Below, one piece after another: positions 2,440 through 62,415 of a stretch of 64,000 bases of DNA. Made by a program: the position numbers and the translations under genes. The notes beneath the pieces were generated by a model. That model did no database searches and was not told where the DNA came from. It saw only the letters and a list, made by a program, of their open reading frames with translations. Origin of the DNA: Pegea sp. RAD2-039 (Eukaryota > Chordata > Thaliacea > Salpida > Salpidae); NCBI GenBank assembly GCA_034620365.1, contig JAQGEQ010000048.1, forward strand, positions 1,302,001-1,366,000, read 5' to 3'. Within the stretch, counting starts at the first letter, position 1. The number at the start of each line of letters is the position of its first letter.

Positions 2440-3300
2440 TGTTGCCTAAACAGATTTGATTTTTTGTTATATCACTAATTTGATATGGCATCCATACACT
2501 GACACTGCATTCAATAATTGGACGTAAACACAATTCAAAGAGATTGATAAAGAAGTATGGACTCTTAGAATTAAAGGTCTTCCTATTATGGTAGACAAAG
2601 TTTATTAATTTTGCAAAGTTTTTAGAAATATAAGTGTGTTATTTAAAATCAGATGATAGGGTAATACCAAGGTCTAGGACCGAAGATATTTATGGAATAA
2701 TAAGTTCATTGATGGAATATTGGTTTAAGGAATTTGCAGCTGGTTTAAGGGAGAAAGTTATAATTTCAGACTTTATGGGCTGCCAATATATAGACCAGTT
2801 TTCCACAGTGTGTAGTGCAGTTTGAAGTTTTGAAGAATTGCAAGATAATACGTTAATGTAATACAGAAACACACTGACATCATCTACTGCTACTAGTCTT
2901 CTGATGAGGTCTTCAATGAAAAGAGAAAAGAGAAGGGAACCCAGAAGGAAACCCTGAGGAAAACCACTGGTGACTTGACTAGGAGTAGATAAAGATCTTT
3001 TAACACGAGTTTGTTGGGTTCTACCTCACAAGTAATCTTCAATCCTCGTTAAGATTAGGCTGTTGATTTTTAACTTTTGTAAAACAATAATGAGCTTGTT
3101 GTGTGGGACAGAATCAAACGCTTTAGCAAAATCGGATATAAATAAGATATATGATGTCACAAGGAGTATTACTTTCATAATGGACTGTAATCTCATTAAG
3201 AAAAGTGAGATGCTGAGTCAGGGAAGATCTCCGTTTCACAAAGCCATTCTGGACATCAAATATTAGATGGCGTTCAATCAAATGACTGGCCATATGCGTT
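2440..3300 (-). mobile_element. Decayed non-LTR retrotransposon (LINE) reverse transcriptase
   Basis: Minus-strand translation gives recognisable pieces of a LINE reverse transcriptase in the right order. First is a palm entry with QNGF and a Leu-Thr-Gln motif (about 3250-3150). Next is DFAKAFDSVPHNKL (about 3150-3090), the first catalytic aspartate block. Then comes SGFPQG..LLGSLLFSLFIEDL (about 2970-2900), and last a thumb-like stretch FNSKSPYFFINLFELCLRPI (about 2570-2500). Frames shift between blocks, stops interrupt, and the YADD-type active site has become YYIN, so this is a dead fragment of a jockey/CR1/L2-like element. Exact ends were not seen. Confidence 0.8.
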
Positions 3301-38879: not shown

Positions 38880-41800
38880 TTATTTTATCTTTAATGATCT
38901 AACATTCTTGCCTGTTAAATTTTGCTGCTTGCAAAGCAAACTTAACTTACATAAAAACTTTTTATAAAAAGCTTTAAAGTCCTTATGACTGGAAACATAT
39001 ACAAATGTTGTTAAAGACGATGAAGCTTTTGCCATGATAGCTGCTACACTTTCTAGCCAACTAGGAGCGTGCTTACAGAAGAAGAAACATTAATTGTTAT
39101 TTGGTTAAAAAAGTACAATGTTAGTTACAGATATAAATATGATGATGCAAAGAAGCTTTCTGATATGTTTTGAATAATGATGATATTGATTCATTATAGT
39201 TTATAAAATATTTTTTGGAAATATGAGTAACTGTTTTATTGTAGTTTTTATATGAAATGCAAAATTTGAATGAAAACTACAATTTATGATCATACGTTAA
39301 CTATAAATATTGATTTGTACAACTAAGATTGATTGTTAAAATGCTCAAATACTAACCATACCGAGAAGTGTGCTGGTTGCTATACATACATAAGGGAACC
39401 ATGAACCCAAAAAGCAGAGTATAGCTTTAGCAGCAGTTTTGGCGAGCTTATATTCACGTATTCGTATCAAAGCCGAGTTTCTTTCAATTTCAGCTAAATT
39501 TCCGTGAAATAACCTACATCTGCTGAGTTTTGTAGCTTGAATGATTCTTATGTAGCAAAACAATATTATTGAAAATGGAACTGTAGTAAAAAAACAAAAT
39601 TTAAACAAACAGATAAATTGAGAATAGAATCTTTAACTGGTATTAAGAAGAAGTAGAAATGATTTTAAAACAAAATTGAAATTCTATGCAAGCTGTTTAA
39701 ATTTTATCCAAAAATTGGAAATATAAAAGATAAGCAGATAAATAACCTAATTAAATTTTAGATTTGTAAAAGCAACCAGTCAACAGACATATAGTAATTG
39801 TGATTTATCATATGTACAAAATATAACTTACTTACAAATCCAGCTACTATCAGCAAAATAACATAAAGTATGTTTTTTATATCTTTACTTTCGTAGTTAT
39901 AAGTACAACTTATTCTTATTCCATTTAAACAAAAATCTCCAAAATTAAAAAAAGGGAGACAGCCTAAAAAAACTCTGTGAACATAAGTTTCAAATGAATA
40001 AAATACATGGTTTTTCAAGAGTACTCACAAAGATTATAGTGCAAAATAAGCCAAAATAAATTATATTATTTTAGATTAAACTTAAGGTACTTGAAACTTA
40101 GATATCAGAAACACTTTTATTAAAAAACATTATTCATTATTATCCAATATTAAAAAGAGTATAGCTTACGCTAAAATCCAGATAGAACTTAACCTGCAAA
40201 ATTGTATCTTTCTACTAATATAAGGAGAAATTAAGTAGCATATTGCATAATATCGCTGTAATGTGATATCACACATGACAAATATCTGTGTGAAGCAGAA
40301 AATTGCGGTCAAAAACGAAGTTAAATCACAATCTGAAAACAATAAGAATTAAAATAAATAACATGATGAAATAAAATTAACAAAAACAAACTTTACATTA
40401 TTATTTTTGTTTTACTAGTTTATATTATTTTTATTTATTTATATATTTCAGATAATGAACGGAGTTTCTACATTTTGCTAAGAATAAAAAAATGACTCAA
40501 AAAGTTGTGAAAGATTAGATTATATTTATAAAGATTCAAATGTTTTAATTTCTTTATTTTAATTGGCAAAATCAAACAATCTTCATATAAAATGTCAACC
40601 TCTTTGAGCTGTTTTGAAAATAAATTTTGAACATTTTACAGATTTACATTGAACTTAATAAGGTGTATGGAAAACTCTTAACAGTTTTATACTTTATATT
40701 TGAAGAAATAAATAAAATTGTTCTATTTGACTATTATTTCACTATTTTCTTAAATAGACAGTTTACAATAGAATTCAGATAATTAATCTAATTAAAAAAA
40801 TCTTATGTATCATTCACCATAGTTGAACAAATATTTGAGAATATTTCAATGAAATACTTGTTATAAAATAATTCAATAAATTCAAAAATGTTGTTTTAGT
40901 AGTTTATAAAAAATATCCTTTTTAATTTTCAATACTTTTTAAATACGCAAATGTTTCTTATATCTACCACAGCTTTAAAGGTTTAGCCTATGATTTTGAA
41001 CAAAATATTTCTAATGAATAAAAAAGCAATAGACTTAAAAAGTTGATTTATAGTAAAAACAAAACAAAGTTTCGATTTTCTATTTTCATTCTACAAAAAA
41101 ATTCTTTTTTTCTCAAAATAAGATTTATCAAATTAATTATGAACGTCTTTTTTAAAGCAATAAATAGTAATATAATTGATAATTAGTAAATATTTACTTT
41201 AATAATAAGAAAAGCTCTACTACTATTTTTTCTAGGTAATTTGAGAATGACATAAAAGGTATTTTTTGTTAACAAAGTTTTATAAATTTATCAGCAGAAG
41301 TAAAACATCAAATTGATAAAATTCATTACATTCATAAAAATTAATAAAAAAAACTTGATTTTCTTAAACTAATTTCCGTAAAAAATAAAATGATTGTTTA
41401 TTTCAAAAAAATATAATGGAATCAACAAGAAAACAAATCTGAACACTTTAAAACCTACAGTTTAATAATATCAGACAGATATGATAAAAACATTTGTTTG
41501 ATTTTAAATAAGTTGAGTAATTTGTGTGAAAACTTTTATTGAGGATTGAGCTGGTTTTTGAACATATCAGAGTAAAATATATTTGTTTATACTTTTAAAA
41601 ACAACATCTGAGTGATAGACTGCAAAGGGTCTGTTTTAAGCTAATTAGGGATTTTAATGAAAAGCTTTTTGAATTTTGTGAACTTCAAGATTTTTGAAAA
41701 ATTGATTATTACTAAATTTCGTGTTTCATCTGCGATTTGATTTTTGACAAAATTAAATGATTTTAGAATCTTCTTGCTTAAAAATTGGCAAAAAGATTAT

Positions 41801-42423
41801 AAAGAAATACTAACTTAGCATTAGTACTAACTAACCTATTTATATATATCACTTCGTTTAATTTTTGATATATAATGACACAGCTTTATACATTGAATAC
41901 ATTTCATATACAAATCAAACTGAAAAATAAACACTGTAAAAACCAAAATAGTAAAAAGTAGTTTTAGATATTTGTGCATAAACTCATTATAATAACTCTA
42001 AATACTTACAATATTGCCCCATTCGCCAGCCTAAATTGAAACAAGCGTCGATAATAAATGGAAAACTAATTGAAACTCCAATATTTGATAATGTTAGCGA
42101 CAACAAATTCAAATTAATAAGTCGCTGCTTTGGGCATTTGAAAACTCTAAAAAATTTTGAAATTTATAAATTATTCATATTTTTTTTAACATCATAAATA
42201 CAAAGCTCATATCATATAAATTTATATATAGCTAAATAAATTTAGAAAATAGAAAGTTTAATATTCAAAAACAGTTTGAAAATTTGTTAAAAAACTTGAC
42301 TCACCTTGTAAATCCAACTAAAGTTACTAAATTTATAATTATACTAAAAATTGATATTATCAAAACAAAACATCCAACAGTATAATACAAACTTTTACTT
42401 GCTAAAAGTTCTTGGGTAGCCAT
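38880..42423 (-). CDS. Divergent opsin (7TM receptor with retinal-site lysine)
   Basis: Six exons: 42423-42305, 42146-42010, 40332-40170, 39974-39832, 39580-39357 and 39071-38880. They total 978 bases, 325 residues, with seven membrane segments. Opsin marks: Asn in TM1 (SIIINLVTL); GWRMGQYYC before TM3; SCTY in extracellular loop 2 (Cys163 pairing with Cys87); FVIPFSIILFCY in TM5; KLAKTAAKAI...SWFPY in TM6; and AAIMAKASS in TM7, with Lys277 at the Schiff-base position, ten residues before the tyrosine of FVY. Helix 8 reads SSHKDFKAFYKK, like the usual opsin HPKFR. Odd: QRY replaces E/DRY, TTFVY replaces NPxxY, the TM2 aspartate is missing, and both counterion sites are neutral (Thr90, Asn157). 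An acceptor TTTTCAG lies five bases before the ATG. It is opsin-like by structure; light sensing is not shown. Confidence 0.85.
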
Positions 42424-45400
42424 TTTTGCTGAAAACCTAAATTAATAGATAGTTTAGATTTAATTTATCGTATAAAAACAAAAAAAAATTTTTATTCACG
42501 AAGACAATTAGGCTTAAAACCCTAAATTTTACAAAATCTGTTTTCATTCAAAGCAAGTCAATCAATTATTAAGTGCTTTAAATCATTACATCAGAGGTTT
42601 TTCAGTAAACCATAAATGCTTTTTAGCTTGTTTTTCATATACAAGAAATGGTTTTTGTAAGGCAGATACTTAAAGTAATAGGGCCCCAGGAGGTATACAT
42701 TTTATAGTTTTTCAAAAAAATTATTTGTTCTAAAAGCAACTGACATTAGATTAACGCTTTATTGCTTTTCAAATTAGGTTAGCTTCAATGTATAATTAAA
42801 TTTTTAACAGAAAAATAAAGAGACGCACTTGTGGTAATCCAGAAGAAGGCTGCAACTAGAATGATTTTATGTATTATTTAAAATTAAGAGTAATTTTTAA
42901 ATGTTACAACTGGTTGTAAGCAATAACACCAAGACAAACAATCACATCCCAATCTCTATGAAAAGACATAATTTATTAGAAAAGTTGTATGTAAGGGAAT
43001 TATTAAAAATATAACAACTTATTTATTTGTCTTGGGTTTCCTATATACATACTGCTTTTGTAGCTATACTTTTTTTTTTAAATTTGTTCTAGAAAAGTCA
43101 ACCACTATAATTTAACTTTTTTATTTTCTTCATGTCTTTGTTTTAATGCATGTTTCTCTAAAACATTAACAATGTCTTTATTTTCTTATAAATAACTAAA
43201 ATTAAGAGAAATATTGAAAACAAATTTGGTTTTGACAGTAAAAAAAAGAATAAAATAGTTTTTTACCTTCAATAATCTCAAATATGCAAATTTATAGCAT
43301 CACCTAAAGCTTAAATTTATTTCTGCCAAATCCATATAAAAAGCTTAATACAGCTTCCAGTAGGCTTGGGCAACATAATATTTATTACTTAAAGTAGTTT
43401 GTCATAACATAACAAAAAAGTACCTTGCTATATTAACTATAAAATGATTTTCTAGCTTCTAGATACATATTTTAGACAAAATTTTTAAGCTATGGTTAAA
43501 AAATTTTTAGAATGTATATAAAACTAAGCGTAAAGTTTTAATACAGAAATCTATTATTCTCACACTCAAAATTACACTAGGCATAAAGTTAAAAGGATTC
43601 TTTCAAAAAATTATCACAGAAATTTGAAATTTTCATCAAAGTTTAACCTTAACTGTTCGGTCTAAGCAAAAATATTCATATTCGAATATTTCCTGACCTA
43701 ATAACGTTGTCAAACATAAAATAAAAATCAAGTTTTACTTTTATAATCATTTTATTATGATGATAAATCAATCTAAAAAATTTTACAATCATAAAATTTG
43801 TTAAATTGTTTCATAAATTTGTAAAATAATTGTAGTTTGTTGTTAAAATGAAGAAAATTGAAAAGAAGAGCTGACAACAAATAAAATCAAAATTAATCAA
43901 TTTATTTAATGGTTGCTGAAAGTTGCTTTTAGATGTAAAATAATATGACAAATACACTGAAGAATATACGTTAACTATACCAATACAAAAATACAATGAT
44001 TATTTAGGAATAGAAAAAGCTGTGCAAGAGATTTGCTATTTCTCGAAAAAATTTGGCAAATTTCTCGAAAGTGTATTTCATATATTACCTTATTTGTTTA
44101 ACGTTAACGTTGCCGGCTTTAAGCTTTCAGATCAAAAACTAATATTTATGCTATTTTCTTTCAAACTAAATAATATTGGATAATCCTCTTATGAGCTGTA
44201 ATGGCTGTTAATTAAAACGAATGATTTATCATCATGTCTACATGACAATGCGTAATGGTGAAAGAAAATAAGTTTAACTATAAAATTAGATTAGTCGACA
44301 AAATTTTGAATTATAAAACCTTATACTTATTCTTAAAGTAAACTGGAACTTTTGCTTTAAAACTCCTTTTTAAGCTTACGTTTACAAAATGTTTCATGAA
44401 ATATTTTGCAATAAAATATAAATAAAAAAAGAGATTTTATTTAAATATCATTAAAAACAAAAGCATAAGCTTTCGTATAAAACTAAAACTATTTGATTCT
44501 GATATATCAAACAGAATTTTTCTCTACTGATATATCATTTTTAAAGTTGTGCGGCCTAAAAACTACAGAAAAAGTCAAAAAATACTTTTCAATTTCTTAA
44601 TTTTAGTTTAAACTATCTTAAGAAGAATAGTTTATTGTATATACTTTATATAAGTAAATTAAACTAAAATGTTTGAAATCATAAATTTACGCAGCATATG
44701 CTAATAAGAATTACAAAATAAAACTTTGTATAAAAATCAATAAAATTAGAGAATATTAGAGAAAATGCTGTTTGAATGAAGCATGAAGAGAAATGTTTCC
44801 AATAGTTAATGCACCAATAAGAAGGTAAAAAATTCATATAAATTTATATCAAAAATCAATACTGTTATGCTTTCAACAGTCCAATCAACTCATGTTTACT
44901 TGTCTTAAAATATTTTATGATCCTCTTCCAAAAATCGAACTATTTGTAAAGAAGTTTTGGTGGCCTAAATTATTAAAATATCATTTCTTATAAGAAATTC
45001 TTTAAAAAATTAGGCTGTTATTTTTAGTTATAAAAGAATTATTAGTTTATTAATTAACTTAGAAAATATAAAATGTTAGTATCAAATTTAAGAAAAAGAA
45101 AGAGTCAACTAGTTCTAAATATTGATTTTTTTTAATCAAATTATACTGATTATTGATTAGGAACTTACTTAATTTTGAAAATTGTAACTCAAATAAGATC
45201 ACTATTAAAATTGTTAAATAATTAAGTGTTTAATGGTAGGTTCTTCTTTCACTTAACAATGTGTAGTCAGAATTTCTTGTTTTGCCTGAAGAAGATATCA
45301 ATATTCCAAATGATTTATGATCTTTTCATTGTAGTCTTTTGAAACCTATGATTGAGGTTGACCAAAAGATATATAACAAAGTTAAGAAACAAATTCTTAA

Positions 45401-47127
45401 GCAAAATTTAAAATGGCAATTCCTATTCTTTAGTAAGTTTTCAAATAAGTTGGTAAAGTTTGAGGCTATATTATTTATAATATATTTTTATCACTTATGT
45501 AAACTTCAGTTTAATTATGTATGAGTAATACAAGACGTAGAGAAGTAAATAATTTTTAAACTGTACATGTAAAAACGTTTTCATACAGCTAAATGTGTTT
45601 ATATCATGTCTAAACAAAAAGTTTTGCGTATCATTAAGAAAAAGCAGTGGAACCCAGCTTAGGGCAAAAAATCTATCCATAAGCCAGCTGGATATAACAT
45701 CTTTAATTATAAAACTCTTCATTCAAGAAAAAACATAAATTCATAAAAATAACATTCTTTGATAATCTATATTGATTTAGTGTTTAAATTATTTACAGCA
45801 AAATTAGACAGTTATCAACATATAATTTTAGGTTTAAGTTAGTTAATCCTTGTAAAAAAAGTTTTTCAACATAGCATTAATAATTCTATAATAAATTTTA
45901 TAATCTAGGGGTTTTCAAAATTTAAGAAGCTTCAGAATCGTATCTTAGTCTCATATGTAGCCTACGGCCGCAGATTTGTACATTAAAATGACATACAAGT
46001 TCAATCTATCTAGTGATAAGCAAAGAAATAACAATAAAAACTTTAATAAGGACCTAAAAGTTCAAGCAAAGTCTGATATCGCAAAATTTGATGATTTTTT
46101 GGTATTAATAATTGAGTTAAAGCAAGACGCAATTTTACATCATGCATTTTCCAAAAGTTGCTTAAGATGTTCGTAAGGTAATCTAATTAGCTGAAAAGAT
46201 GCACCTAAATGTTGAGCCAAATAATTTTTCTTGTAAGTAGTTATTCTTAGATATTAAGATACATGGTTATGTAAACTATAAATGCCAAGCGTCTTTCTTT
46301 CCCCAAACAAATAATTAAATTTCTGAAACAAAATCTTGAAATATTTTAAGAAAATTAGAGCAGTTTCAAGTTCTCGGCAGTGTTTTAGAATCCTAGCTGT
46401 AAATGTTTTCCTATTTTGTTTAATCATTGAGCTATTCAAGAACTTAATTTGTACAACTCTTCTATGAAGACAAAACCAAAATTTGATCTAAAAAAGATAA
46501 ACTTGTTAGAGACAAAACTTGATTCTTGGAGGCTGTAGATGTTTTTCTCATTATTTTGTTTCTATATATTTAGTTTTTGATTTATTTTTCAATTGCTTGA
46601 ATTATATAAGTATCATGAAAACTTATTTAAAATGAAAATTCTGTACTCAAGATGTTTTGAAATATATAGAAAGTGAAATATAATAAACACGTAATTGTTA
46701 GAGAAAATATTTGATTTGTAAGCCCACATAGAATCATTCAATGTAGGGCTATTAAACTTGCTTGTCTATTTCCCGTTCTTTTGTCATAATCATTTTCTCC
46801 ATTATAGTTACGTCACAACAAAGTGGACAGTTTAAAATCTTAGAGTCGAGATACTTTTTCATCAGGCACAGTATATATGTAAGCTTGTAGGTGATAATTA
46901 AAAGGTATGTTAATGTTACATATTTGTTAATTAACGAGGTTATAGTTAAAAGCTTAGACAATATCAATAGATTTATTCTAAAGAATTTCATTTATATTTG
47001 GTGACTACACAATAAGCTAATCAGAAAATTGTTACATCATATCTATGATATATAATACAAGACTCATAAATAGCATTCAGTAACTTTAGTTGATACTGTC
47101 ACATGTAGAAACTCAATTGATTGAAAG
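42424..47127. other. Shared 5' intergenic region of the two receptor genes
   Basis: About 4.7 kb between the divergently transcribed opsin-like gene and the second receptor. I found no exon or known repeat; open frames are short and low in complexity. Any promoters and shared enhancers of the pair should lie here. Confidence 0.4.
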
Positions 47128-50100
47128 ATGGGAAACATACCAACCCACACATTTTGTAGTTATCCTTACTTGTTTTGTTCCAACTCAACTGAAACGCTCT
47201 GCACTTTGAAAAAAATATCTTCGTGTTGTAAGTAAGTAATAAATATAAAAGTATTTTGAAAATCTTTTATGTAATTTGAAAATAATATTGACCACAAAAG
47301 TAATCCATCTCCAATAAGATTAATTAGAATAATTAGAAATAGTTTTATTAATTTTAACAAAAAGTCAATCTTTATTACGTTATATTAGGATTAAGAAATG
47401 TATCACTTGATTAATATGCTAGAATGATTTTACAACACGCACTGCTGTTAACTATTTTTGTAACACAACAGTCAGTATGGAATATGGGTGTATATTGGAG
47501 CTCTTGTAGTAATCAGTTTATTGGTGATATCATTAAATATCTTTGTACTTTTTACAATTATCAAAAACAATGAAAAAAAAACATATCATATTTTCATAAT
47601 GTCAATGGCTATTAATGACTTAATTTACGGTGAGGTATTAATTATTCAGTTTTATTTTTTAATTTATTTAAAAATTAATTACTAAAAAACTTGTTCAGGT
47701 ATGATTTTGCTTGGGGTAAAACTTCCCCGAATAATTTCAACTTTTAGTTTTAATCGTAACGAATTAAATACATATTATAAAGACTCCATTGCCTCAACAT
47801 TTGGAAAAGTATTTTCTTTTATGGTTGGGTTTAATGATGTGTGCAGAGCTTTACACATTTTTAGTTTTTGTTGGCATGAAACAAGAACATTGTTGAATCC
47901 TCAAGAAGATATAAGAATATCTTACAGAAAAATCTTGGAGTTTATAATTTTTATTTGGTTCTTGGCAATTTTTATTGGGCTTTTCCCAGGTGAATATGCT
48001 TTTGACATATAAAGAGATGCATAAAGTAATCAAAAGTTTACAGTTAATATACATTGGTCGTAATTAAAATGTAATACCAAATAAAAATGTTTTACTTGTA
48101 TTAATTAAACAGATAAATTCTCTATGTTAGCATTGAGTTTATTTTTAGAAAAATTTTTAAACTTAAAGAGAAGCAAATCCTTATGTACATTTATTAAATT
48201 AACGGCATGTTTAATAATATAGGTAAAGTTTATGATAAACTACTAATTTCTTAAACTGATATCAATCGCTTGTTTTGGCTGTAAGCTAAGAACGATAAAA
48301 TTAAAACGACTAAAGTCGTGATGATATAGCCTAGTTTTACAGTGAGACTACTGTTTTGACAGTTATGCTAAAGGCTAAATACTCTTCCATCTACCACATT
48401 GGTTTACTTATGTATACTTTCATACCTACTGACCAAAATGATGTCTTCAGTTTTATCAGCGTCAAAGTTTTTTTTATTTTTTCAATGTTATCTACAGTAA
48501 GTTTTTTAACAGTAACAACATCTTTATAATTATCTGGATATTTTTTTATAGAATTTAATTAATGTTTAATATTTTTATTTAAAATGGATTAATAGAATTT
48601 CTCCATTATTAAATCAGTCAAAAATATAAATTGCAATTTTTCAAAAACTTAATCTTTTTTACATTCTTATAAAGCAACTATATACCAATTATTTTAAATA
48701 TCACTTAGAATTATTAATACGCATACAAAAAGTATACTAATTTACCTGTTTTATTTTATTATAAAAACAACTTATCTGAATGTCTTTTATTGAAAGTTTT
48801 GTATAATTATTTGGATGAAACGAAAAACAAGAAATAGATCCAATAACGAAAACTCTGCAAATCTTTGCTCAAACATAACTTTATTTTACTTTTTAACTCA
48901 AGGTTGTATAACATCATTGATCTTTTGTAAGATAAATATTCATTGGAATAAAAGTTTTGTAAATTCATAGAAATTGATAAATTTATGTTCATTTAAGTTT
49001 ATATTTTTGGAGGTTTAAGCAAGTTATCATCATTTATTTTATGATTTTTTAATCTTGATTATCTTTTTAGTGCCATTATCAGGTATGCTGTTTACGAACG
49101 TTTTAACTTGCAAGTATGTCTCATATTATTACTCAGTTGTGTTCTTCATCGAAGCTATGAAAGGGTAAATTACAACTTCCAACGCTTTTAAAAGACTTAA
49201 AGCTATCTTTACCTTTCCTATAGTCCTTATAGTAACTAATTTACAAAATACTAATACAAAATGTTTATTTCCAAATAACTTCAACAAAAAATTGATTAAA
49301 ATAAAATCATTAGATTGTTTTGAATAAAAAGTTTATTAGAATTATCTGATAATACTTATTTTTCAATTTATATTTTTATGTGTAGATTTTCAAATTGTGC
49401 AGTTTATTTTTATGAAGACAATATCTTTAAAACTATTGTTCTTCCCAAGTTTTCCAAGGCTCTTCCAAACATTCGGAAAATTAAATTTAGGAAGCCACAA
49501 ATAAAATGTTGTGGAAAAAACAGCACAAAAAAAATATTAATTAATCTAAAATTCAAGATAAAAAAAGTTAAATTTGCGCAGCCTAAAATCAGTAAAAGTC
49601 AAATTAGAAAGTCAAAAAAAAATGTTTCTGGTGGAAAATCGATTAGAAACAAAATGATACCTGTTAAATCCAATATCAAAAAAAGTTACTCAATTAGAAA
49701 AACTTCTGTGAAAAGTCAAATGTCGGGAAAAATCTCAATGACTAAAAACCAACCATCAAAGAAAAGTCCCATTAAAAGTCAATCAACGCTCAAAAGTAAT
49801 ATCAAAAGTAAACCAACAAATAAAATTTCTCTCAAAGATCAAACATTAAAAGAACCATCAGTTAAAAGTCAACCACCACAAGAAAATCATGTCAAAGTTC
49901 AATCAACAGAAAAAAAAGTCACAGAAAAAAAATCAACATTATCCAATGTTCAAAAGTTTGAAAATATACAACCAAGTAATACACAAAATGAAACTTCAAG
50001 TAAAGTGATAAAAAAAAGTTCAGTTTCAAGAACATCTGTTTCTCGAGAAAGTAAAACTAAAAGACACAGTGTTAAAATGCAATATTCAGAATACTTCAAT

Positions 50101-50902
50101 CCTAAAAACTCTTTTTCCGTTAAATCAATAGATTCAAAAATTAAACCAAAAAATCATAATGCTGAGAAAAATAAGAACAAATGGAAACAATTGAATGTAA
50201 ACAAGCCGCATGGAAAGACCAATATTAGAACAAGTAAAAAATCAAAGCCTGATAGTAGGAAAAGTCAGCAACTAGCTTTTGATACAACAAAAAAACCCAT
50301 AACTTTGCAGCAGGTGAGAAATAAATTATCATTTTAATTTTTTTAATATAGACCAAATATTATTCCTTATTTGATTTCATATTTTGTTCTTATGTTATCT
50401 ACTTCAATTCAAATGATAAAATACACATGATATATTCAAGTTGATAAAAAACCTTTTAGTCCATTACAATACAAATCAAATTTTTCAGCAATTATTATAC
50501 AAATTTGCCAAGATCTTCAAAAATGTTTCGTAAAACACGTATAAATATGATTTAGGTACGCTCAAAATATTCTACTTACTAATTGATTGATGAAATAATA
50601 TCACTATTTTGTACATTGATTATGCTAGGCTAAGCTATTAAACATTCAACTGCTTCATGCAGAAAAAATCTGAATATTTTGGTATTAGTAGTCAGTTTTT
50701 TTAAAAGGATTATAACTTTATAAAAATGTAATATTATCTTAACATTGTTACATTGCTAAATCAGTTTTTTAATACAAAAGTTAATACGTTTACTTGAAAG
50801 ATTTCTCCTAAAAAGATTAAAAGAACTGAAACAAGAAAAAATGCTCTGCTTCAGAAACAACTAAGGACACTGAACTTCCCTACAAAGAGAATGAGCCATT
50901 AA
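47128..50902 (+). CDS. Opsin-like 7TM receptor with long Lys/Ser-rich tail
   Basis: Eight exons: 47128-47231, 47472-47629, 47699-47989, 48363-48496, 48797-48902, 49071-49164, 49386-50313 and 50801-50902. They total 1,917 bases, 638 residues. The short N-terminus has a sequon (NST). TM1 has Asn (VISLNIFVLFTII), TM2 the conserved Asp (MAINDLIYG), TM4 Trp and Pro (FIWFLAIFIGLFP), and TM6 YFLTQVPL, where Gln replaces the toggle Trp. TM7 reads FFIEAMKGFSNCAVYFY: Lys295 stands ten residues before Tyr305, the same spacing as opsin Lys296 to NPxxY Tyr. There is no TM3/loop-2 cysteine pair and no clear DRY. The remaining 300 or so residues are strongly basic, with recurring KSQ-type units (for example VKSQPP). 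It is a class A-like GPCR; assignment to opsins rests on TM7 and the neighbouring gene. Confidence 0.7.
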
Positions 50903-59837: not shown

Positions 59838-62415
59838 TTATGAATTTAGTACATATCCTTGTGAAATCATCGACTCAGCGATCTTTTTAAACGCTGCTGC
59901 GTTAGCTCCAAGATGAAAATCACCTAAAATATTGACGTCATCACGTTTGAGAATATGATGTTGACAATATAAATACCAGGTTGATTCAAATCTGCTGCAG
60001 TATCTCGACAAATCATATAGACGTTCTCCATGATTGCTTTCAGTTTAGATTCCATTTCAATTTTACTCCAGAAAACTCTTATAAAGCCTTGAGAAGACTC
60101 TAACCCAGATAAAGCGATCCCTCCTAAGTTTGTTGCCTTTAATTTAGTAACAAGTCTTTAAGAAGTTTATGGAAAAGCTTTTTAATAACACAATTTAAAA
60201 ACATGTTTGTTCTTGGAAATTATGTAGTTGAAATTGTTGAAAAACTAAAACTTTTTTCGTAATAACTTTTTGAATAGCTTAAAGTTTCGATAAAACGTTT
60301 CTATGAGTTGATATTTGTAGATAGTTGAAGACAGTAACTTACTTTAGATGGTAGGTAATTGATATTATATTTTTTCAAAACTTTTACAGCTTCACTTGTA
60401 CATGACATGTTAGACCCTTCAAGCAACCAACGACAGTCTTGTTTAGTTAGGTTAAATGCGTCTATGTATTGAACTTCATTTTCAACTGCACATGGTAGGG
60501 CTATATCACAATTTATATGCCACGGCCCTTTGCCTTCAAAGTATCTGAAGTTTATTTGTTAAAATTATTACTGAAATGAGTTTAAACACTTTTCAACTTA
60601 CAAAACTGTTTTTGAATGAGCTCTGTAATCGGAACATCTACCTTTTTTGTTTTTAATTGCTATTAATTGCTTAAGTTGACCCATTGTAAAGCCTTCAATC
60701 TATTTTTGAAATGAATTTATTTAGTTTGTTTGGAATTTAACTTTAAACAAGATACCGTATTTATATGAACAGATTAGGACTTTAAACAAAATTATATCTT
60801 CAAAATTAAATCTAAATTATTAAAAAAGAGCTTGCATAGGCAATATAACAAATTTTAGCGGAAAGCAAATAACTTCTCAAATACTTAAATTATTTAGGTC
60901 GCTGTAAAATAAATAAACAGAGAAATGTATGATGTGGTGAAGTGTATAAACCTCAAATACAGTTCCTTTTGAATCACTAAGAGAAAGAACTCTGCCTCCG
61001 AGTTCTATACACTTTTCAGCTGCACTCAAAGCGACCTTTCCTGACCCTGAGATAAGGATTTTTTTACCGTTAATGGTTTGACCCTTGTCTCTCAATGCAC
61101 AGTCTAAAGCATAAACTAAACCATAACCTGTAAACATAAAAATAAAATTGGTTGGTTGGCTAATATGATATAATTATTCAGTCATATATTAAAAATGCTA
61201 TTTAGCATTAAACTAAACTATGATAACGTTTATCAGAAAACTTTCGGCATAAAAAACAGTGTAGCTGATATATAATAATGATGATGATATAAATGGTATA
61301 TAACTTAAAGATTCTAGCTTCAAATAAAGCGAGTTTTTGTAATTGATGCTTAATAGAAATTAGATGCTAACCGGCAGCTTCAGGTCTACTTAAAGAACAA
61401 CCCCAACCTTTACCATTCAGTGCAACTGAACTATCTTTAATCTGTTTGTATTGACCAAAAAGAATAGAAATTTCTTTTTGATTAACGCCTATACCACCAA
61501 CAGGTATTTCAATGTCCTGCAAAATGAAAATGATCACTATAATAGATATTTCAATTAAATACTAAAGACCATACAAATTTAATTTTTAGTAAAAGCTTAC
61601 CAAGTCAGTATGTTTACAAAGCTCAGTCATTAAACTCTGACAAAATTTTGCTGTCTCAAAATCGTTGCTTTCTTTAGGATCAAAATCTGAAGTGATTGCA
61701 GACCCACCCATTGGGAATGTTGATAGAGAGTTCTTCAAAGTTTGTTCAAAACTAAGAAATTTTGTGAGCGAAAGATTTACCGTTGGATCAAATCTCTGTA
61801 AAAGTTATCTAATATGATTACGACATACTGTTGTATATATCATCTATATTTATATAATCTCAATATCTTATTCACAATTTGTTTGCAAAATCATTGCTAA
61901 ACTAGTTTTTTTTATATATTTAAAATTGTCTCACCACAGCTCCTTTGCATGGTCCAAGAATCTGACTATGCTGGACAAGGTACCCTCTATTAACTTTTGT
62001 TTTTCCCTACAATTATAAAAATTAATTCCTGGCTCAACTAGTTATGTTATTTAAAAGTAAAAGATTATTGTTTGATTAACATAAAACAAGTGTAAAAAAA
62101 ATTCACTTGGCTATTCAGCCATGGTATTCGGAATTGAACCACTTTATAAGGCTCACAAAAATAAGGCAATACATCTAAATACCGAGGATATCTCTTGAAA
62201 AAAGGATTTAAGGAAGTGAAAACTTGATTTACTGCCTAAAAAATTTTGATCGCATCAGTTATAGATCTTCTATAACAAGTAATGAAAGTTTTGTTGACAA
62301 AATCGTAATATTAGCAACAAAAATAATCAACTTTAATTAAAGTGTTTTTTTTTACTTTTAAATACTCTGCTTCATTTGGGTTTCGCTTTTCTACCTCATT
62401 TAAAATGTCTTCCAT
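59838..62415 (-). CDS. NADP-type glutamate dehydrogenase homologue lacking catalytic residues
   Basis: Homologue of the 50-kDa hexameric glutamate dehydrogenase of bacteria, fungi and protists (GdhA type), not the mitochondrial GLUD1 type. Ten exons: 62415-62356, 62235-62107, 62006-61935, 61795-61601, 61516-61372, 61127-60952, 60699-60602, 60544-60343, 60136-59977 and 59923-59838. They total 1,323 bases, 440 residues, full family length. Family marks: start [32 protein letters not shown] (Lys84), FEQTLKNSL (Lys108), SRPEAAGYGLVY, the Rossmann motif [12 protein letters not shown] (227-238), [34 protein letters not shown] and [14 protein letters not shown]. The catalytic lysine motif PMGGGKGGSDFDP is [13 protein letters not shown] (Lys to Ala120). 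The catalytic Asp of PAGDIGVG is Gly160 in PVGGIGV. The frame is intact, so this is a likely pseudoenzyme, not a pseudogene. Confidence 0.88.

Follow-up and report, generated by a model that had tools for sequence, protein, structure and literature searches.

Two genes that face away from each other were analysed in a stretch of 64,000 nucleotides from Pegea sp. RAD2-039 (Thaliacea; Salpida; assembly GCA_034620365.1, contig JAQGEQ010000048.1, positions 1,302,001 to 1,366,000, forward strand). This whole stretch is called the window, and positions are counted from its first letter. Probably, the minus-strand gene is a functional-looking, retinal-binding opsin from a lineage-specific clade of nine genes with rebuilt G-protein switches, and the plus-strand gene is an unrelated orphan receptor of class A-like type, not a photopigment, which lies next to the opsin incidentally. 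A preliminary description had taken both genes for aberrant opsin-like receptors, perhaps an old duplicated pair or a lineage-specific opsin family. The family was found for the minus-strand gene, as a clade of nine members, but the plus-strand gene did not belong to it: its lysine in transmembrane helix 7 (TM7) is out of register, and joining its protein to the family was rejected.

Structure and motifs of the minus-strand gene

Splice sites were read by eye and the exons joined. The minus-strand gene (38880-42423) consisted of six exons with compatible phases and a single frame of 325 amino acids from ATG to stop. The exons and the adjoining spacer are listed below (ECL and ICL, extracellular and intracellular loop).

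42305..42423, minus strand: opsin exon 1, start codon and TM1 (spliced model, donor GTGAGT, phase 2)
42010..42146, minus strand: opsin exon 2, TM2 and ECL1 (spliced model; intron phases as in the paralogs)
40170..40332, minus strand: opsin exon 3, C3.25, TM3 with QRY replacing E/DRY, start of TM4 (spliced model, alignment)
39832..39974, minus strand: opsin exon 4, end of TM4, ECL2 with C187 and N181, start of TM5 (spliced model, alignment)
39357..39580, minus strand: opsin exon 5, P5.50, TM5, ICL3, TM6 with WFPY (spliced model, alignment)
38880..39071, minus strand: opsin exon 6, TM7 with K7.43 (K277 of the model), TTFVY replacing NPxxY, helix 8, stop (spliced model, alignment)
42424..47127, no strand: spacer between the two start codons, 4.7 kb

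Both genes have intron-containing models, and their divergent arrangement around a 4.7 kb spacer was as originally described. Six open reading frames in the spacer were scanned and gave no Pfam match at E<=0.1.

The opsin-like character of the minus-strand protein was confirmed. It matched the class A seven-transmembrane (7TM) domain of Pfam (7tm_1) at 5.7e-27, and its best match among solved structures was squid rhodopsin (5.7e-25), followed by spider kumopsin1 (2.4e-23), the melatonin receptor MT1 (6.5e-16) and bovine rhodopsin (1.6e-11). A lysine (K7.43, position 296 in bovine numbering) is located exactly ten residues before the TM7 tyrosine. In bovine numbering the protein keeps N55, C110, R135, Y136, W161, C187, P215, Y223, E247 and W265, in addition to P267, Y268, K296, Y306 and F313. 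At positions 83, 134, 181, 302 and 303 it carries N, Q, N, T and T, versus D, E/D, E/D, N and P in most reference opsins. The protein has N2.50, Q3.49, QRY and TTxxY, and both the NPxxY and the D/ERY motif of rhabdomeric opsins (r-opsins) are missing. The loss of other class A signatures had been pointed out before, and indeed a normal DRY and NPxxY were absent from both proteins of the window. There was no acid at counterion sites 94, 113 and 181, and site 292 is occupied by alanine (A292). By these features the minus-strand gene looks like a genuine, functional-looking animal opsin, an aberrant one within a lineage-specific family.

A family of nine opsin genes

The genome searched comprises 105.7 Mb in 387 contigs, with the window on contig C262. 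Searching it with the minus-strand protein yielded eight further opsin genes, nine in all, and these eight paralogs were rebuilt with a spliced protein-to-genome aligner. The last four introns had phases 1-2-1-0 in all nine genes, the last donor of paralog C4a varying with the query used. The first intron, of phase 2, was recovered in eight of the nine; for C6 no convincing TM1 exon was found in the region fetched, and in C1 the end of TM1 was cut in the alignment. In total 43 introns were scored, 38 from the paralogs and five from the window gene, with one intron in C6 and one in C4a excluded as uncertain. All 43 were GT-AG, which gives no independent support because the aligner permits nothing else.

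Mean column identity in the alignment of the nine opsins was 51%. K296, C110, C187, W265, P267, Y268 and Y306 were present in every member, and P303 (P7.50) was replaced in every member, by alanine in seven (giving NAxxY), by threonine in the window gene and by methionine in C1. None of the nine had an intact E/D-R-Y; the versions found were ERV, ERH, ERA, EKY (four times), QRY and TRM. Of the counterion sites, 181 carried an acid in 6/9 members (E181 in the C279 gene, for instance), 94 in 2/9 (E94 in C4a) and 113 in 0/9; only the window gene and C1 had an acid at none of them. Aspartate was found at position 96 in five members, including these two. The tripeptide of helix 8 started with H in 8/9 and was H-P-x in 5/9, the window gene having HKD. 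H came first in this tripeptide in all four reference r-opsins and in none of the six other reference opsins. A profile of the family scored squid rhodopsin at 190 bits, kumopsin1 at 163, bovine rhodopsin at 128 and MT1B at 111. No such nine-gene family is named in the literature searched, a search that did not extend to animal sequence collections, and we do not claim that the family is unpublished.

Phylogeny of the family

Trees were built with ten reference opsins, eight of them entered without a database record; xenopsins, cnidopsins and ctenopsins were not included, which makes this a limited test. In three trees the nine opsins formed a single clade (support 100/99, 100/98 and 97/99), and these nine with the ten references (19 rows) were split from the other rows at 96/95, 91/92 and 97/99. 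In the third tree the other rows were seven, the plus-strand protein among them. The minus-strand opsin thus groups with opsins, as against melatonin and other class A receptors, in all three. The family was sister to the reference opsins, which were held together at 86/90, 85/86 and 93/94.

When the family was forced together with other groups, the cost ran from 3.6 to 9.8 log units and no grouping was rejected (p-AU, p value of the approximately unbiased test): r-opsins, 3.6 log units, p-AU 0.226; MTNR1A, 4.4, p-AU 0.109; ciliary opsins (c-opsins), 8.4, p-AU 0.141; RGR, 8.5, p-AU 0.129; and the Go/RGR/RRH/OPN5 set, 9.8, p-AU 0.095. Neither nesting within the r-opsins nor a grouping with RGR was recovered. 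An affinity to r-opsins is favoured by the ranking of the profile scores and by the H at the first tripeptide position, and the clade may be the sister group of all opsins sampled or a fast-evolving branch of the r-opsins. Among its members the window opsin is, by its sequence, the most derived.

The plus-strand gene

The plus-strand gene was modelled at 47128-50337, with exons joined from splice sites that were read; the 3' end could reach past the stop at 50337.

47128..47231, plus strand: orphan 7TM gene exon 1, N-terminus (spliced model)
47472..47629, plus strand: exon 2, TM1 with N1.50 and TM2 with D2.50 (spliced model; weak acceptor)
47699..47989, plus strand: exon 3, TM3 without C3.25, HET replacing DRY, TM4 with W4.50 (spliced model, profile; weak acceptor)
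48044..48059, plus strand: tentative micro-exon in ECL2 that bridges a phase mismatch (best of 7 candidates by splice-site score; a guess)
48343..48496, plus strand: exon from ECL2 to TM5 (spliced model; start uncertain)
48797..48926, plus strand: exon with end of TM5, ICL3 and start of TM6 (spliced model)
49071..49164, plus strand: exon with TM6 with P6.50, start of TM7, A7.43 and K7.45 (spliced model, junction enumeration)
49386..50337, plus strand: last modelled exon, NCAVY, helix 8, tail of ~280 residues rich in Lys and Ser, stop (spliced model; 3' end uncertain)

The micro-exon of 16 nt between TM4 and TM5 was introduced because exon 3 ends in phase 1, whereas the following exon is open to entry only in phase 0 or 2. 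For TM7, six open junctions were enumerated. The best scored 14.9, closely followed by one at 14.1 that would remove most of TM7. The TM7 peptide of the best junction reads EAMK before the junction and GFSNCAVYFYEDNIF after it. Counted from the tyrosine in the NPxxY position (here NCAVY), alanine is found at -10 (7.43) and lysine at -8 (7.45), and the phenylalanine of helix 8 is at +7 as in opsins. A lysine at -10 occurred in none of the six junction peptides. The preliminary description had placed a lysine ten residues before the tyrosine in both proteins, which is correct for the minus-strand protein; in the plus-strand protein the count had been made to the next tyrosine. This case shows that the register of a TM7 lysine has to be established before a receptor is described as opsin-like.

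On a codon-usage score trained on 2,417 codons, with a maximum of -0.05 for the non-coding null, the minus-strand gene reached 0.037, the 7TM part of the plus-strand gene 0.030 and its tail -0.019. This is weak evidence, as the six wrong-frame scores of the minus-strand gene and the plus 7TM part included 0.006, -0.004 and -0.041. The tail itself (49490-50337, ~280 residues) has a very high content of Lys and Ser, contains recurring KSQ/KSN-like motifs and gave no Pfam match.

The whole plus-strand protein gave no Pfam match above cut-off and no match to a G-protein-coupled receptor (GPCR) in the PDB. The domain comparison that matched the minus-strand protein so well reached only the TM1-4 half of its neighbour, which was colinear with 7tm_1 at E=0.0031 (17.5 bits, below the curated cut-off of 30.5). 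With a profile of 15 class A sequences, 11 of them opsins, TM1-7 were colinear; the best-domain score of -4.0 bits, not significant alone, was reached by 0/500 window-shuffles. In the register of this profile N1.50, D2.50, W4.50, P6.50, N7.49, Y7.53 and F8.50 are kept, and C3.25 and DRY are lost. Alignment to an opsin profile with hhalign gave a probability of 2.9% (E 0.016), over TM1-4 only. In 26 pairwise comparisons the highest z-scores were those of ADRB2 (4.9), MTNR1A (4.3), RGR (4.0) and squid rhodopsin (3.6). The mean z was 1.46 against the neighbour's nine-gene family, 1.95 against ten other opsins and 2.12 against seven non-opsin class A receptors; opsins were not preferred over other class A receptors. 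In the tree the protein formed an end branch of 4.2 outside the branch of 19 opsins (97/99). Joining it to the window opsin was rejected (p-AU 0.0175), as was joining it to the family (p-AU 0.0142), results that are model-dependent because the branch is very long. No paralog was found, all seven genome matches at E<=0.1 being its own exons, and its introns, on inspection, occupy other positions than those of the opsin family. The plus-strand gene probably encodes a very divergent class A-like 7TM protein, and its place beside the opsin is probably an incidental neighbourhood.

Comparison with known receptors

The family resembles r-opsins (squid rhodopsin, kumopsin1, melanopsin) in its best PDB matches, in K296 and WxPY and in the leading H of helix 8, but differs in the two motifs lost throughout, and the trees place the clade outside the sampled opsin classes. 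PMC7529461 gives HPK as the r-opsin tripeptide and also describes flatworm xenopsins with strong changes in NPxxY. With RGR-opsins the family has the combination of NAxxY and K296 in common (PMC9368030), but it has an H-x-x tripeptide and nine paralogs and was not grouped with RGR. Melatonin receptors, the usual outgroup of opsins, likewise have NAxxY (PMC9368030, PMC4159004); unlike the family they lack K7.43 and fall outside the opsin branch (97/99).

Two further comparisons were made by description and not by sequence. The ASO-II opsins of corals, as described in PMC12401545, resemble the window gene: acids are absent from sites 94, 113 and 181, and E(D)RY is missing. They have an acid at 292, however, where the window opsin has A292, and seven of the eight paralogs of the window gene keep an acid at 181 or 94. 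The placopsins, opsin-adjacent receptors without K296 according to PMC4159004, recall the plus-strand gene in this respect, but the plus-strand protein has no preference for opsins.

Proposed function of the window opsin

Retinal would most likely be bound at K277 of the minus-strand opsin, and light would isomerise it there. Across the clade the switches for G proteins appear to have been rebuilt, with NAxxY or another sequence in place of NPxxY and E/DRY never intact. Since D2.50, E3.49, N7.49 and P7.50 are all changed in the window opsin, we infer an altered coupling; the protein most likely still acts as a receptor triggered by light, whose activation of G proteins is altered or weakened. 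In receptors with NAxxY, signalling may be increased, reduced or absent, and this varies between receptors (PMC9368030), so the loss of NPxxY does not prove a loss of signalling.

Sites 94, 113 and 181 are described in PMC12401545 as the counterion sites confirmed experimentally. As the window opsin has no acid at any of these, we predict that its Schiff base absorbs in the UV, depends on chloride or relies on another acid, for example D96. The same paper reports that a coral ASO-II opsin without acids at the three sites uses chloride, assisted by E292. Given A292 in the window opsin, its counterion solution would have to differ from that of the corals if a visible pigment forms.

Alternative explanations

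Several of our observations speak against the reading preferred here, and some of them lead to other readings of the minus-strand gene. Its protein lacks D83, E/D134, E/D181, N302 and P303, and its end branch, about 1.0, is the longest of the nine. With these lost motifs and this long branch it may have become a photoisomerase that does not signal or a receptor independent of light, or the gene may be under relaxed constraint. It is rather unlikely that the opsin is a photoisomerase of the RGR/retinochrome type, which binds retinal and no longer activates G proteins. An NAxxY-type change is common to RGR-opsins, which are thought not to signal (PMC9368030), and the window copy has lost D83, E134, N302 and P303, but the tree does not favour RGR, the forced grouping described above being costly without being rejected. 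Co-option for a role that does not need light, as a chemoreceptor or another kind of receptor, or decay of the gene, would also account for the many altered activation motifs and the longest branch in the family; as K296, W265, both disulfide cysteines, a full open frame and consensus-like splice sites are retained, we regard this as quite improbable.

The remaining adverse points concern the plus-strand gene. The acceptors at 47472, 47699, 48044 and 48343 scored -2.0, 0.5, 3.9 and 3.3, and the lowest of the 43 opsin-family acceptors scored 4.1; because these four are weaker than any acceptor of the family, our confidence in the preferred reading is lowered. In addition, a profile of 11 opsins scored the plus-strand protein at 3.6 bits, reached by 0/500 shuffles, and its placement as sister of all opsins was not rejected (p 0.479). 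The score of the 11-opsin profile is a hint of opsin kinship, one that the pairwise panel does not support. With a nine-opsin profile the score of the protein was reached by 38/500 shuffles and with a four-sequence non-opsin profile by 259/500, the reversed protein also scoring higher there; as the latter profile is narrow, less weight is given to this contrast. An origin of the two genes as an old duplicated pair, with the plus-strand gene an opsin whose lysine was lost, agrees with their adjacent and divergent position, with the 7TM character of both and with the 11-opsin profile. This origin, suggested previously, is very unlikely, as other class A receptors are at least as close to the plus-strand protein as opsins are (its mean z is lowest for the neighbour's family), intron positions are not shared, and the p-AU values for both joinings were low. 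It is also doubtful, though less so, that the plus-strand gene encodes another multi-pass protein that is not a GPCR, or that its model is partly wrong. This would fit the absence of Pfam and PDB matches, the negative class A score, the missing D/ERY and C3.25, the four weak acceptors and the one junction, between TM4 and TM5, without a firm solution. The colinearity of its TM1-4 half with 7tm_1 and of TM1-7 with the class A profile, the shuffle result for that profile and the seven class A residues kept in its register argue for a GPCR.

Search for canonical opsins

A query with the C4b paralog gave 47 genome matches, five of them outside the nine opsin loci. Judged by position, none of these five was a new family locus; three were receptors, which were read, and two lay in frames of 910 and 928 amino acids, which were not read. 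Squid rhodopsin gave 26 exon matches, ten in the nine opsin loci and 16 elsewhere, the top three being amine-type receptors. Nine of the 16 were read, two of them in the TM6-7 stretch only, and in the seven of nine that showed a TM7 it was not that of an opsin. This query was insensitive at TM7: it missed every TM7 exon, including those of the family itself. A composed opsin TM6-7 query resulted in 87 genome matches, and 11 stretches were read: nine had a TM7 without Lys at 7.43, one ended before TM7, and one, on C139, had 'FAK' at a probable exon end. By its sequence we take the C139 stretch to be vasopressin-receptor-like. No canonical opsin was found in the genome by these searches, which were not exhaustive (seven squid-query matches were left unread), in an assembly that may be incomplete. 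It is possible, but in our view unlikely, that all canonical opsin classes have been lost in the animal and that its photoreception is run by one unnamed class. This class would be sister to all sampled bilaterian opsin classes and defined by K296, a TM7 of the NAxxY type and the absence of E/DRY, with some members, such as the window gene, without acid at any established counterion site.

The TM6-7 query also touched a large family of intronless frames of ~1000 amino acids (C308:20250-23500, and similar frames in C63, C172, C174, C176, C179, C343, C374 and others). At least 30 of its 87 matches were located in frames of at least 900 amino acids, and identical scores were common among them, a sign of possible recent amplification. 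In the single copy that was read, repeats resembling the class A repeats of the low-density lipoprotein receptor (by eye) were followed by a class A 7TM domain.

Other features of the window and the genome

The window has a G + C content of ~27% and contains intron-containing animal genes. In a Pfam scan its other frames matched a TSG101-type UEV protein, an NDH2-type NADH dehydrogenase, a deoxynucleoside-kinase domain, a GH116 glucosidase and a glutamate dehydrogenase exon. The NADH dehydrogenase, of the alternative type, forms an intact frame in this animal genome (28464-29774; Pyr_redox_2 2.3e-42, NDH2_C 2.9e-15). The exon at 60880-61173 belongs to an ELFV dehydrogenase (7.7e-15) and presumably resembles the small NADP-type glutamate dehydrogenase, not the usual animal type. 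A reverse-transcriptase fragment was present at 2693-3025 (RVT_1 2e-05, below cut-off).

COX1 gave no match in the genome at E<=0.001, and a rotifer spliced leader was absent even when up to 2 mismatches were allowed. A homeodomain search of the genome gave 71 matches, with a homeodomain-like frame in 24 of the 30 loci scanned. Two homeodomains resembling posterior Hox are located on contig C235, at 97051 and 119215, ~22 kb apart. By their signatures we take this pair to be Post1- and Post2-like, and other loci to be Cdx, Xlox and a Hox4-type gene, a set of bilaterian, perhaps spiralian, type.

Implications

The window gene is a natural candidate for a counterion-less pigment that may be compared with the chloride-counterion opsins of corals. 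If the nine opsins are the whole complement of this animal, it would sense light with pigments none of which has an intact NPxxY or E/DRY, and the family would be a natural test of whether the two best-known activation motifs of GPCRs are dispensable.

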